Positions 8,989 to 24,388 of a stretch of DNA of 24,598 nucleotides are shown here, piece after piece. The stretch covers positions 1-24,598 of IMG/VR virus record IMGVR_UViG_3300020139_000003; one strand, 5' to 3'. The notes under the pieces are model-generated. The model saw only the letters and a program-made list of their open reading frames with translations, made no database searches and had not been told where the DNA came from. Numbering within the stretch: position 1 is the stretch's first letter; each line of letters starts with the position of its first letter. The translations under genes and the position numbers were made by a program. The stretch comes from a virus.

Positions 8989-9047
8989 ATCTCCCACCTC
9001 GCATGACAAGATGAAACACAGAACAACCTAGAGAGGAGGTGATCATA

Positions 9048-9392
9048 ATGCACCGCCTTTTGCCCGCCATCGCCGCCCTAATCCTTGTGGCAGGTTGCGG
9101 CAGCCAGCCCCAGGCCCAAAACGCGCCAACCCCTCAGCTTGACGTGGCGGCGATAGAGCAGAACCTTCGTGCCAACTTCGGCGGCACCATGTGGTTCAGC
9201 TCGGTCAAAAGCCTTGAGGCCACGGGAAGCAACCGCCTGGCGGTCAATACCGAGATTTTCCCAGACGCCGAGGGCAAACAGTTCGCCGAGGACATCTGTC
9301 GCAAAATGTTGGCGAACACGGCCCAGGCCGGCGTGAAAGTGGTCAATGTCCGCGGACAGGACGGCAAGGTGCTGGCGCACTGCGCACGCTGA
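9048..9392 (+). CDS. Small lipoprotein on the opposite strand (moron candidate)
   Basis: This is the only plus-strand gene in the window. The 114-residue product starts with a basic residue and a hydrophobic signal (residues 4-16) ending in a lipobox Val-Ala-Gly-Cys with the lipidated Cys at 17, so it should be exported and anchored in the membrane. A Pro/Gln-rich linker follows, then a mixed alpha/beta domain of about 80 residues with two Cys (84 and 112) that may pair. The ATG at 9048 is supported by GAGGAGGTGA five bases upstream; a GTG nine bases earlier is part of that site. It faces the tape measure start and ends exactly next to the stop of the frameshifted chaperone (TAA at 9395-9393). 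I cannot name a function. Phage lipoproteins encoded against the operon often act in the lysogen, for example in superinfection exclusion. Confidence 0.8.
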   Translation: MHRLLPAIAALILVAGCGSQPQAQNAPTPQLDVAAIEQNLRANFGGTMWFSSVKSLEATGSNRLAVNTEIFPDAEGKQFAEDICRKMLANTAQAGVKVVNVRGQDGKVLAHCAR

Positions 9393-9901
9393 TTACCACC
9401 GCGCCAGCACCTCGATGCCGCCCGTTGGCTCTCCCCGGACACCGTGACATTTATGATGTTGCTCGGCCAGGGCGTTGATCTGACGCAGAGTAGCCCTCCA
9501 GAACTCGGCCTCTGAGAAGCCGAAGATCACCCGCCCCAGGTAGTAGAGCCAGGCCCAGTCGATGTCGCCTGGCTCTACGTCTCCTGGGGCGTCCCGGCGT
9601 TTGGGTCTGGCGCGGGCAATGCATTAGTGATGGCCTTCGCCACCGCCTCTGCGTACTCCTGGAGTCGGGAGAGGTCCATCATCGCGCCGACCTGCCGTTC
9701 CGTGAGTGTCTCGTCCTCGTGGAGCAGTCCGGCCCAGAGCAGCGTCCGCAGTCGGCCCATGGTCATCTCCTGGCCGAAAAGGGCGTTCAATGAGCCGAAC
9801 TTTGCCTCCAGCTCTACCAGCGCGTTCAGGTCAAAGCGTAGCTCCCGCTCCCGGTCAAGGCGCACTAGGACCTTGGAGGGCTTCAAGTCCTTCCCTCGCA
9901 C
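9393..9901 (-). CDS. Tail assembly chaperone, -1 frameshift product (gpGT-like)
   Basis: A second reading frame continues past the chaperone stop and ends at TAA 9395-9393. It has no start of its own and encodes a segment rich in aromatic residues (Asp-Trp-Ala-Trp-Leu-Tyr-Tyr-Leu-Gly-Arg, Glu-Ala-Glu-Phe-Trp-Arg-Ala-Thr), which is the typical T-part of siphovirus tail chaperones. A slip of -1 at the CCCAAAC heptamer (9605-9599 on the minus strand) joins residues 1-101 of the short protein to 68 more residues, about 169 in total. In lambda-like systems the long form binds the tape measure and recruits tube protein. The reading-frame arithmetic is checked on the sequence; frameshift use and efficiency are inferred. 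Confidence 0.8.
9543..9578 (-). other. Perfect 12-bp stem-loop downstream of the slippery site
   Basis: GTAGAGCCAGGC and its exact reverse complement are separated by 12 bases. In the minus-strand message the stem begins 20 bases after the CCCAAAC heptamer and contains the zero-frame UAG stop of the short chaperone in its 5' arm. It may stimulate the ribosomal frameshift, although stimulators usually lie 5-9 bases away. Within the overlap region it is coding sequence for the longer product. Confidence 0.75.
9575..9901 (-). CDS. Tail assembly chaperone, short form (gpG-like)
   Basis: The 108-residue protein is the zero-frame product of the chaperone pair that acts between the tube and tape-measure genes during tail assembly. 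It has a beta-type start (Leu-Val-Arg-Leu-Asp-Arg-Glu-Arg-Glu-Leu-Arg-Phe-Asp) followed by helices with Leu-Val-Glu-Leu-Glu-Ala-Lys-Phe-Gly, as in the Phage_TAC group, and a flexible Ala/Pro/Asn tail over the slip site. The GTG start at 9901 has GGAGGG seven bases upstream. The gene follows the tail tube gene by 12 bases, which is the conserved order tube, chaperone, tape measure. The lipoprotein gene separates it from the tape measure here. Confidence 0.85.
   Translation of the reverse strand: MRGKDLKPSKVLVRLDRERELRFDLNALVELEAKFGSLNALFGQEMTMGRLRTLLWAGLLHEDETLTERQVGAMMDLSRLQEYAEAVAKAITNALPAPDPNAGTPQET
9599..9605 (-). promoter_or_regulatory. Slippery heptamer for -1 ribosomal frameshifting (C CCA AAC)
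   Basis: On the minus strand the codons Asp-99, Pro-100 and Asn-101 of the short chaperone read as C CCA AAC, a canonical X XXY YYZ heptamer in the zero frame. After slipping back one base the tRNAs re-pair with CCC AAA and the ribosome enters the only open downstream frame, which encodes the expected T-segment. Confidence 0.8.
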
Positions 9902-21983: not shown

Positions 21984-22322
21984 TTACCTCTGAGGCATAA
22001 TCAGTCTGTAGCAACTGTCTTCCTCTCGCACTCTCATGTAGATAGCTTCTCGCATTGGCATAATGTAGTATCCCGCAACATATCGCCGTGCCGCCATTCG
22101 GTTTGGCGCGGCGATAAACCACCATGCTTCCCCGTCGTCGACCAGCCACACGGGTTGCTTTTTCGCCTCGTGCGCTGGTACAGTATCCTCGCAGGCATGC
22201 GCGGGAACACCCTCACGTTGTCCGCAAGGACGGCAGCCCGGATGGGGTGGGATCGTGAGGCCCGGGGCCTGCATTTTATCTTGCCTACTCGCTTTTCTCG
22301 CCTTGATGATCCGTCTAGGCAT
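21984..22322 (-). CDS. Hypothetical early protein with conserved-looking Asp-Asp-Gly-Glu-Ala-Trp-Trp core
   Basis: The 112-residue protein has a basic N-terminus (Pro-Arg-Arg-Ile-Ile-Lys-Ala-Arg-Lys), a middle with three spaced Cys and His, and a C-terminal domain with Trp-Leu-Val-Asp-Asp-Gly-Glu-Ala-Trp-Trp-Phe-Ile-Ala-Ala and Ala-Ala-Arg-Arg-Tyr-Val-Ala. This last pattern recurs in small phage proteins of unknown role. ATG 22322 overlaps the upstream gene by eight bases, so it is coupled to the Cys-rich pair; the longer frame upstream would cover that gene completely and is rejected. Cysteines in Pro-Gly-Cys-Arg-Pro-Cys-Gly may bind zinc. Confidence 0.6.
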   Translation of the reverse strand: MPRRIIKARKASRQDKMQAPGLTIPPHPGCRPCGQREGVPAHACEDTVPAHEAKKQPVWLVDDGEAWWFIAAPNRMAARRYVAGYYIMPMREAIYMRVREEDSCYRLIMPQR

Positions 22323-22903: not shown

Positions 22904-23193
22904 TGTCCCACCGCCCACGCCAAGACGGCCAACGCAACCGTAGCCGCCAAAAACCCAATGAACGCCCAGTCCGCCATCCGCGCCCAACGGGAGAGATCCT
23001 CAGTAGTCTCTTCCTCCACCCGCATAGCCTGTGCGCGGATCCGTTGGCAGGCTATCTCCGCAGCCTTGAGACGATAGATGGCCTCATCCACCTCCAGCGA
23101 GCTCGAGGCCTCATTGAACCGCTGCCAGGCCAAGTGCCATTCCTGCCAGCGATTTCCTAATGTATTGTTGTGGCCGTTTACGCATACTCTCAT
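22900..23193 (-). CDS. Small single-pass membrane protein downstream of the structured leader
   Basis: The 97-residue protein begins with Arg-Val-Cys-Val-Asn-Gly-His-Asn-Asn, continues as a helical, charged cytoplasmic part (Glu-Ala-Ile-Tyr-Arg-Leu-Lys-Ala-Ala-Glu), and ends in one hydrophobic segment (about 76-96, Phe-Ile-Gly-Phe-Leu-Ala-Ala then Val-Leu-Ala-Trp-Ala), so it is C-tail anchored. The ATG at 23193 has AAAGGAGGTG seven bases before it. An in-frame extension to 23409 would pass through the hairpins and has odd composition, so it is not used. Tail-anchored phage proteins may affect the host membrane (holin-like, exclusion), but nothing specific is visible. Confidence 0.65.
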   Translation of the reverse strand: MRVCVNGHNNTLGNRWQEWHLAWQRFNEASSSLEVDEAIYRLKAAEIACQRIRAQAMRVEEETTEDLSRWARMADWAFIGFLAATVALAVLAWAVGQ

Positions 23194-23433
23194 AAGGACA
23201 CCTCCTTTTTTGTGGCCCCAGCCCCCACCTGCTGGGGCCATGCCTGGGCGCGCTCCGCAGCCGGTAAAGGAGGTGGACCGGGAAGCGATGACCGGCTGCC
23301 CCAGGCTCCCTAGGGAGACGGGTGCTATGTTGAGCGCCTCCGGCCCCACCGCCTTCCGGAGGCATGCCTGCGGCGCTGCATCGCTGGCCGGGTGATCAGG
23401 CCGACCCACCCCGCAGGCTCCCGCGAATACTTG
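23194..23433 (-). promoter_or_regulatory. Highly structured 240-nt non-coding leader with an anti-Shine-Dalgarno (possible riboregulator)
   Basis: In the minus-strand message, several inverted repeats follow one another: GCCTGCGG/CCGCAGGC (23418-23411 with 23373-23366), GCCTCCGG/CCGGAGGC (23363-23356 with 23343-23336), the palindrome CTCCCTAGGGAG (23317-23306), GCAGCCGGT/ACCGGCTGC (23299-23291 with 23265-23257) and TGGCCCCAGC/GCTGGGGCCA (23240-23231 with 23222-23213). The loop after the fourth contains CACCTCCTTT (23275-23266), the exact complement of AAAGGAGGTG (23208-23199), the ribosome site of the next gene. This arrangement could switch translation on and off. No known riboswitch class is recognised and no promoter is evident. 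Confidence 0.55.
23213..23240 (-). other. Perfect 10-bp stem-loop just before the ribosome site
   Basis: TGGCCCCAGC and GCTGGGGCCA enclose eight bases. On the minus strand the stem is followed by CAAAAAAGGAGG, not a T-run, so it is not a terminator. It ends four bases before the AAAGGAGGTG ribosome site at 23208-23199. Confidence 0.85.
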
Positions 23434-24183
23434 CTACACCAGTTCCATCTGCGCCTGGGCCCGTGCGCGCAACGCCTCAGGCTTGATCCTGCGCAGAGTG
23501 TCGCTCATGCGCTGTACCTCATCTGCTGCCCACTCGCTTATCGCTTTCCCTGCCTTTGACTCTGCGGCTTTGATCAATGCATCAATCTCCTCATCTGTGA
23601 GTCCTTTGTCACTAAGTATGTTGTGCAGTTGCTGTAGAGCCTGCGGCAGTTCATTATTCTGATCGAGTATCTCACCCGTGTTGTGATCAACCTGCACTAT
23701 TCGCGCATCGGGAATACTGCCAATTTCGCTCTCGTCGGCCCAGCCCAGCCCGCAGATCGAAAGTGTCACGCGGCGCTTGGCTTTTGTCTCCGCTTTCATG
23801 ATGGCGTTGGCTTTGACCTCGCCGCGTAGCCCTTCCAGGCTTACCGCCCCGATGGCCTCATCTGTCCGGCCATCGGGAGTGGTGGCTCGGGCGGTAACGA
23901 CGTACAAATCATCCACCATCTCTCGCCCCACAATCTCGATGGAAATGCGGTGGATGCGGCGCAACTGCTCGGTCGCATCCTTGCGTGCATACAGTGTAAG
24001 CTTGCCGTTGAGCACGATGTAGTCGAACGGCTTCGTAAAAGGATTCAGCCCTAACGTCTCGCAAACCTTGCGGTAATACCGCACACGGTCTGCAGGGTGG
24101 AGCTTGGAGAGATCGCCACAGACGACGATGTCCTCCAGGAGCTTTGCAGCTTCGTCAATAGTAGCTACCGCCGTCTCGTTCAC
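23434..24183 (-). CDS. Putative RecT/Red-beta-like single-strand annealing protein
   Basis: The 249-residue protein has helical Tyr-Tyr-Arg-Lys-Val-Cys-Glu-Thr-Leu-Gly-Leu-Asn-Pro-Phe-Thr-Lys-Pro-Phe, strand-forming Tyr-Ile-Val-Leu-Asn-Gly-Lys-Leu-Thr-Leu-Tyr-Ala-Arg-Lys, Ala-Thr-Glu-Gln-Leu-Arg, and Met-Lys-Ala-Glu-Thr-Lys-Ala-Lys-Arg-Arg-Val-Thr-Leu-Ser-Ile-Cys-Gly-Leu-Gly. This layout resembles phage annealing proteins of the RecT/Bet superfamily, which pair complementary strands during recombination. The family link is by pattern and not certain; ERF or Rad52-like proteins are alternatives. The start is GTG at 24183 with AGGAGGTGA just upstream, and it avoids overlapping the previous gene. 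A longer frame to 24252 begins with a Gly-run from the Shine-Dalgarno region and is rejected. Confidence 0.65.
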   Translation of the reverse strand: MNETAVATIDEAAKLLEDIVVCGDLSKLHPADRVRYYRKVCETLGLNPFTKPFDYIVLNGKLTLYARKDATEQLRRIHRISIEIVGREMVDDLYVVTARATTPDGRTDEAIGAVSLEGLRGEVKANAIMKAETKAKRRVTLSICGLGWADESEIGSIPDARIVQVDHNTGEILDQNNELPQALQQLHNILSDKGLTDEEIDALIKAAESKAGKAISEWAADEVQRMSDTLRRIKPEALRARAQAQMELV

Positions 24184-24187
24184 CCAA

Positions 24188-24388
24188 TCACCTCCTCCCC
24201 CGCCGTGTCTGTCCCGCAGAGGCATAATTTTCAACCGCTTCCACCGCATCACGAAGAGCTTCCACGCTCTCCCGCGATGGCGGTTGACAACATTCCTCGT
24301 CCAGACACGCTACTACTGCTTTAGCCGCCTCCAGGACGGCCTCTAGTTTGCGTGCCCGCTTAGCCATGGCCTGCTCATCAGTCAACAC
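24188..24388 (-). CDS. Small helical protein, hypothetical
   Basis: The 66-residue protein is almost all helix: an N-terminal Lys-Arg-Ala-Arg-Lys-Leu-Glu-Ala-Val-Leu-Glu-Ala-Ala-Lys, a Cys-Leu-Asp-Glu-Glu-Cys-Cys turn, a second helix Val-Glu-Ala-Leu-Arg-Asp-Ala-Val-Glu, and a basic Arg-Arg-Gly-Arg-Arg end. It may be a two-helix hairpin that works with its neighbours. GTG 24388 follows a run of G seven bases upstream and overlaps the HTH gene by 11 bases; it ends four bases before the RecT-like start. No family is recognised. Confidence 0.6.
   Translation of the reverse strand: MLTDEQAMAKRARKLEAVLEAAKAVVACLDEECCQPPSRESVEALRDAVEAVENYASAGQTRRGRR

Follow-up and report, generated by a model that had tools for sequence, protein, structure and literature searches.

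A putative Shine-Dalgarno-occluding leader with two tandem stem-and-hairpin modules in a phage operon

The 240 bases that separate a RecT-like gene from the gene for a small membrane protein in a tailed phage are read here, tentatively and with slightly less than even confidence, as an intercistronic and untranslated leader within an early mRNA, one that may occlude the Shine-Dalgarno sequence (SD) of the membrane protein gene, possibly in a bistable fashion, and so limit its translation. The DNA analysed, referred to throughout as the window (24,598 nucleotides), is a 24.6-kb IMG/VR record in which the portal, terminase, tape measure and replication initiator genes all lie on the minus strand. 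In the minus-strand gene list drawn up for the analysis, no gene-free interval exceeds the gap apart from the window edge and positions 9010-9574, the latter of which contains a plus-strand ORF, and with these two exceptions the first-pass annotation was right to call it the largest non-coding interval in the operon. Relatives of the upstream gene number in the hundreds and are found in phage contigs, its product gave no match in Pfam, PHROG or NCBIfam, and a search for homologues of the membrane protein returned none. The plus-strand ORF mentioned above (9039-9392) is a lone frame with a lipoprotein-like start and the ribosome site AGGAGGTGATC; it is flanked by the tape measure gene on one side and by other tail genes on the other, and is likely to be an extra (moron) gene.

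Table 1. Positions of the features in and around the intercistronic gap, in window coordinates.
Feature	Position	Strand	Description
Upstream gene, 272-aa ORF	23434..24252	-	Labelled "RecT-like" from a sequence motif only
Intercistronic gap	23194..23433	-	Between the RecT-like gene and the 97-aa membrane protein gene; from the ORF list
Membrane protein gene, 97 aa	22900..23193	-	C-terminal stretch hydrophobic; without family
SD of membrane protein gene	23199..23208	-	AAAGGAGGTG; a 10-mer found once on the minus strand of the window
Anti-SD	23266..23275	-	CACCTCCTTT; exact complement of the SD; plus strand reads as the SD AAAGGAGGTG
Module 1	23213..23310		Hairpin A1, T, stem B1, TCCC
Module 2	23336..23422		Hairpin A2, AT, stem B2, TCCC
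Hairpin A1, 10 bp	23213-23222/23231-23240		Inverted repeat confirmed
Stem B1, 7 bp	23242-23248/23300-23306		Absent from the first-pass annotation
Inner hairpin of module 1, 9 bp	23257-23265/23291-23299 (23257..23299)	-	Anti-SD within its 25-nt loop
Hairpin A2, 8 bp	23336-23343/23356-23363		Inverted repeat confirmed
Stem B2, 8 bp	23366-23373/23411-23418		Inverted repeat confirmed

Central to this reading is the anti-SD, the exact 10-base complement of the ribosome site that had been reported in a loop of the gap and is indeed found there (Table 1). When the SD was held fixed and the upstream 222 bases were shuffled with dinucleotides preserved, such a complement arose in one of 5000 shuffles, and none of the 1177 other minus-strand windows held an equally good one. 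Since this SD matches the 16S tail as its ideal complement, reading the letters of the anti-SD on the plus strand yields an SD as well; sequence alone therefore cannot separate an anti-SD from an opposite-strand SD.

The gap is also rich in inverted repeats. Five had been proposed, of which the stems of 8, 8, 9 and 10 bp stand, whereas the "6-bp" one is the loopless palindrome CTCCCTAGGGAG (23306-23317), for which a maximum of 4 pairs is possible. Direct repeats spaced 112-124 nt led to a view of the gap as two modules, each reading on the plus strand as hairpin A, one or two bases, stem B and TCCC. When the modules are aligned, 15 stem pairs match, with 11 unchanged, four altered by double changes that keep the pair and none broken, a result that is weaker than it appears, each copy having been chosen for its perfect stems; sliding the partners by 1 to 3 columns as a control gave zero pair-keeping double changes. 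Two units of the module architecture on one strand were obtained in none of 3000 shuffles and one or more in 69 of the 3000, for modules that were noticed post hoc, only after looking. The sequence similarity between the modules is modest, being reached by 4 of 2000 shuffles when aligned globally and by 27 of 5000 when aligned locally. From this comparison the gap is likely, if not proven, to represent two diverged tandem copies of one unit that arose by duplication, and it is between these two copies within the gap, and only there, that compensatory changes are seen.

Folding of the minus-strand RNA, which the first-pass annotation had put forward as a check, places SD-paired and SD-free states within about 2 kcal/mol of each other on the 3' half of the gap (23180-23310, 131 nt). 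In the minimum-energy fold of this half the SD pairs with the anti-SD (-57.7), and an alternative fold made up of the inner 9-bp hairpin, stem B1 and hairpin A1 lies at -56.7, with the 7-bp stem B1 completing the SD-free state. As ensembles at 37 °C the SD-paired and SD-free states reach -60.1 and -58.2 kcal/mol respectively, a difference that falls to about 1 at 55-70 °C. The SD-free fold still permits a weak local 5-bp hairpin at the SD, which is thus freer but not fully open. When 120 nt upstream and 60 nt downstream of each start were folded, the SD of the membrane protein gene was predicted to be 3% unpaired (0.03), making it the least accessible of the 20 minus-strand starts in the window. 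The predicted pairing of the SD with its complementary segment is 0.98 on the 3' half and about 0.5 in the full gap, where other long-range pairings arise and little remains of either the inner hairpin or hairpin A2; the two-state picture therefore rests on the 3' half. The two states had been described as mutually exclusive, and although both nested states were recovered at near-equal energy on the 3' half, the exclusivity holds for nested drawings only. By geometry, a pseudoknot could retain the inner 9-bp hairpin while its loop binds the SD.

In the mechanism that is proposed, an early mRNA transcribed from the minus strand would bear two diverged tandem copies of the stem-plus-hairpin module, and the loop in the gene-proximal copy would have acquired 10 bases complementary to the strong SD of the membrane protein gene. 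Ribosomes would be barred from entry in the SD-paired fold, whereas the SD would be largely free in the alternative one, which is built of the inner 9-bp hairpin together with stem B1 and hairpin A1, the choice between the two depending on co-transcriptional folding order, RNA processing or some further factor. The most likely effect, we infer, is repression of the membrane protein. Simple translational coupling is unlikely because ribosomes translating the upstream gene terminate ahead of the entire element, and no intrinsic terminator, in the form of a hairpin followed by a T run, is present in the gap on either strand. If the mechanism is real, the expression of one gene within a co-transcribed phage operon would be set by an intercistronic RNA able to adopt two folds of nearly equal stability.

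By analogy, the leader appears most akin in its working to the structures that hide ribosome sites in phage T4-type mRNAs, as described for I-TevI, segB, soc, e and Aeh1 mobE (PMC2988022). Common to both would be a phage gene inside a longer transcript, as is presumed here, with a strong SD that is predicted to be hidden by upstream complementary RNA. In the T4-type systems an RNA structure lies over the SD and several of the genes add a late promoter that gives transcripts without the structure (PMC2988022), whereas the gap has a long-range anti-SD and an alternative fold and no promoter-like site, a search for sigma-70-like sites having found none in the gap, nor any between the anti-SD and the SD. 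Hairpin A1, which stops a few bases short of the SD, resembles the very stable hairpin of seg43(25) from Aeromonas phage 25 in ending just before an SD; in that system the SD is not hidden (PMC2988022) and, unlike the gap, the published account describes neither an anti-SD nor a second module (PMC2988022). Competing structures, with an anti-SD able to capture the SD, are likewise known from the aapA3 toxin mRNA of Helicobacter pylori, in which the anti-SD hairpins are metastable (PMC6733600), but aapA3 is part of a type I toxin-antitoxin system with an antisense RNA and 3' processing (PMC6733600), neither of which was found at the gap. An SD-hiding translation switch is thus of a kind known in principle, and the version suggested for the gap would be phage-specific and is plausible, albeit unproven.

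A different and somewhat unlikely explanation is that the hairpins are plain intercistronic mRNA elements, which would shield the 3' end of the upstream message or set its limit, and would insulate the ribosome site that follows, with the SD complement having no regulatory role. This would fit with the perfect hairpins, unrelated in sequence, that recur directly ahead of an SD in related phages (L002, L029, L042, L052, L060, L070 and L073). Across 80 viral loci, the sense strand carries 8 perfect hairpins of at least 9 bp that are followed within 12 nt by an SD and start, where 1.4 would be expected, and the opposite strand carries 2, an enrichment that suggests a wider, little-described layout and that, given how close hairpin A1 comes to the SD, also speaks for the occluding leader. 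One such hairpin is common to L052 and L070 and travels with the downstream gene, the stretch that L070 has in common with L052 beginning where the upstream gene has its stop codon. What plain elements leave unexplained is the 10-base SD complement, with its single occurrence in 5000 shuffles, together with the similarity of the two modules. As a separate observation, the hairpin arm in L042, L052 and L070 itself bears an anti-SD adjoining the SD.

The modules could also act at the level of the DNA or of the plus strand, as a palindromic repeat element, a site bound by a protein or a small antisense RNA, in which case the SD-like word would be part of the element or the ribosome site of a 35-codon ORF (23288-23395). 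This too is unlikely. All the stem pairs are Watson-Crick and hence serve both strands equally, and modules 1 and 2 folded singly give z values of -2.3 and -1.3 as plus-strand RNA versus -0.4 and -1.5 for the minus strand. The word AGGAGGTG has just two plus-strand occurrences, at 23268 and at 9034, the latter before the plausible gene at 9039. A known plus-strand RNA, Rfam DUF3800-VII (RF02967, 80.6 bits), is located 0.9 kb from the gap at 22190-22278, in or near an intergenic stretch and antisense to the operon. However, no clear further copies of the modules turned up elsewhere in the window or among the related phages and sampled genomes, and the 35-codon ORF falls inside the hairpins with a long SD-start spacing of about 14 nt. 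The gap element does share with DUF3800-VII a G+C-rich composition, a length of about 90 nt, a GGCATGC junction and the same phage, but in DUF3800-VII the outer stem encloses all, and the idea that the gap holds a DUF3800-like element was rejected on this difference in topology and on the lack of a model match at any threshold tried, the DUF3800 models matching within the window solely at 22190-22278. No DUF3800 gene was seen in the window, and searches of Chloroflexota genomes with the Rfam DUF3800-I and -VII models gave one locus only. In a Chloroflexota MAG (L173) a DUF3800 gene (PF12686) has a DUF3800-VII RNA at its end.

That the structure arose by chance in G+C-rich non-coding DNA is very unlikely: although the gap as a whole folds with an energy that its dinucleotide content would lead one to expect (z of -0.8 on the minus strand and -0.9 on the plus strand), the shuffles rarely or never reproduced the SD complement (1 in 5000) and the two-module architecture (0 in 3000). 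The features of the gap are real and non-random, and the idea built upon them is a sound hypothesis. Most improbable of all is a metabolite-sensing translational riboswitch, for which the two near-equal states involving the SD would be suited, but the gap has no conserved aptamer and no relatives that could be found, the downstream protein is without a known role, and a search of the gap against Rfam gave no class at gathering (cmscan) and no meaningful match at E 10. The earlier judgement that the region belongs to no known RNA class is thereby upheld, and its comparison with translational riboswitches or phage riboregulators survives in the two predicted SD states but not in any matched aptamer class.

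Returning to the preferred reading of an SD-occluding leader, relatives were sought in loci fetched through the upstream gene (80 viral and 55 genomic), the terminase (36) and the initiator (13). A two-module covariance model found nothing convincing in about 160 of these loci, and likewise nothing convincing in 251 genomes sampled from the phylum of a Chloroflexota relative and 299 from that of a Bacillota relative, the genome searches being weak negatives in view of their stricter filters and a model built from two sequences. A weak match of the covariance model in L082 was set aside, as the stretch reads as coding and in the opposite orientation. DNA similarity to the gap was absent from phage and plasmid collections, as was the exact module-2 pattern from viral contigs. 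The pattern ATGCCTGSGN{35,65}CSCAGGCTCCC gave six matches in viral contigs, none with the full module, which were treated as chance; the four for which frames were listed all overlap ORFs.

A more far-reaching version of the preferred reading, and a decidedly unlikely one, is that the gap exemplifies a new class of phage RNA, a ligand-free bistable switch built from recurring stem-plus-hairpin modules in which the frame stays constant and the inner loop varies, the inner loop of one copy having been fitted to the SD of the neighbouring gene. A distant example could then be the non-coding gap downstream of the same upstream gene in L016 (4120-4253, the same in L015), for which no Rfam class fits; the resemblance is a lead only, because a loose-stem architecture scan of all loci gives 303 matches. 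That gap consists, in order, of the palindrome CCTTCTAGAAGG, a 7-bp stem with an inner hairpin inside it, and a 12-bp hairpin, followed by a zinc-ribbon-like gene, and the loop of its inner hairpin, CTCTGAGG, is able to pair with CCTCAGAG in a pseudoknot.
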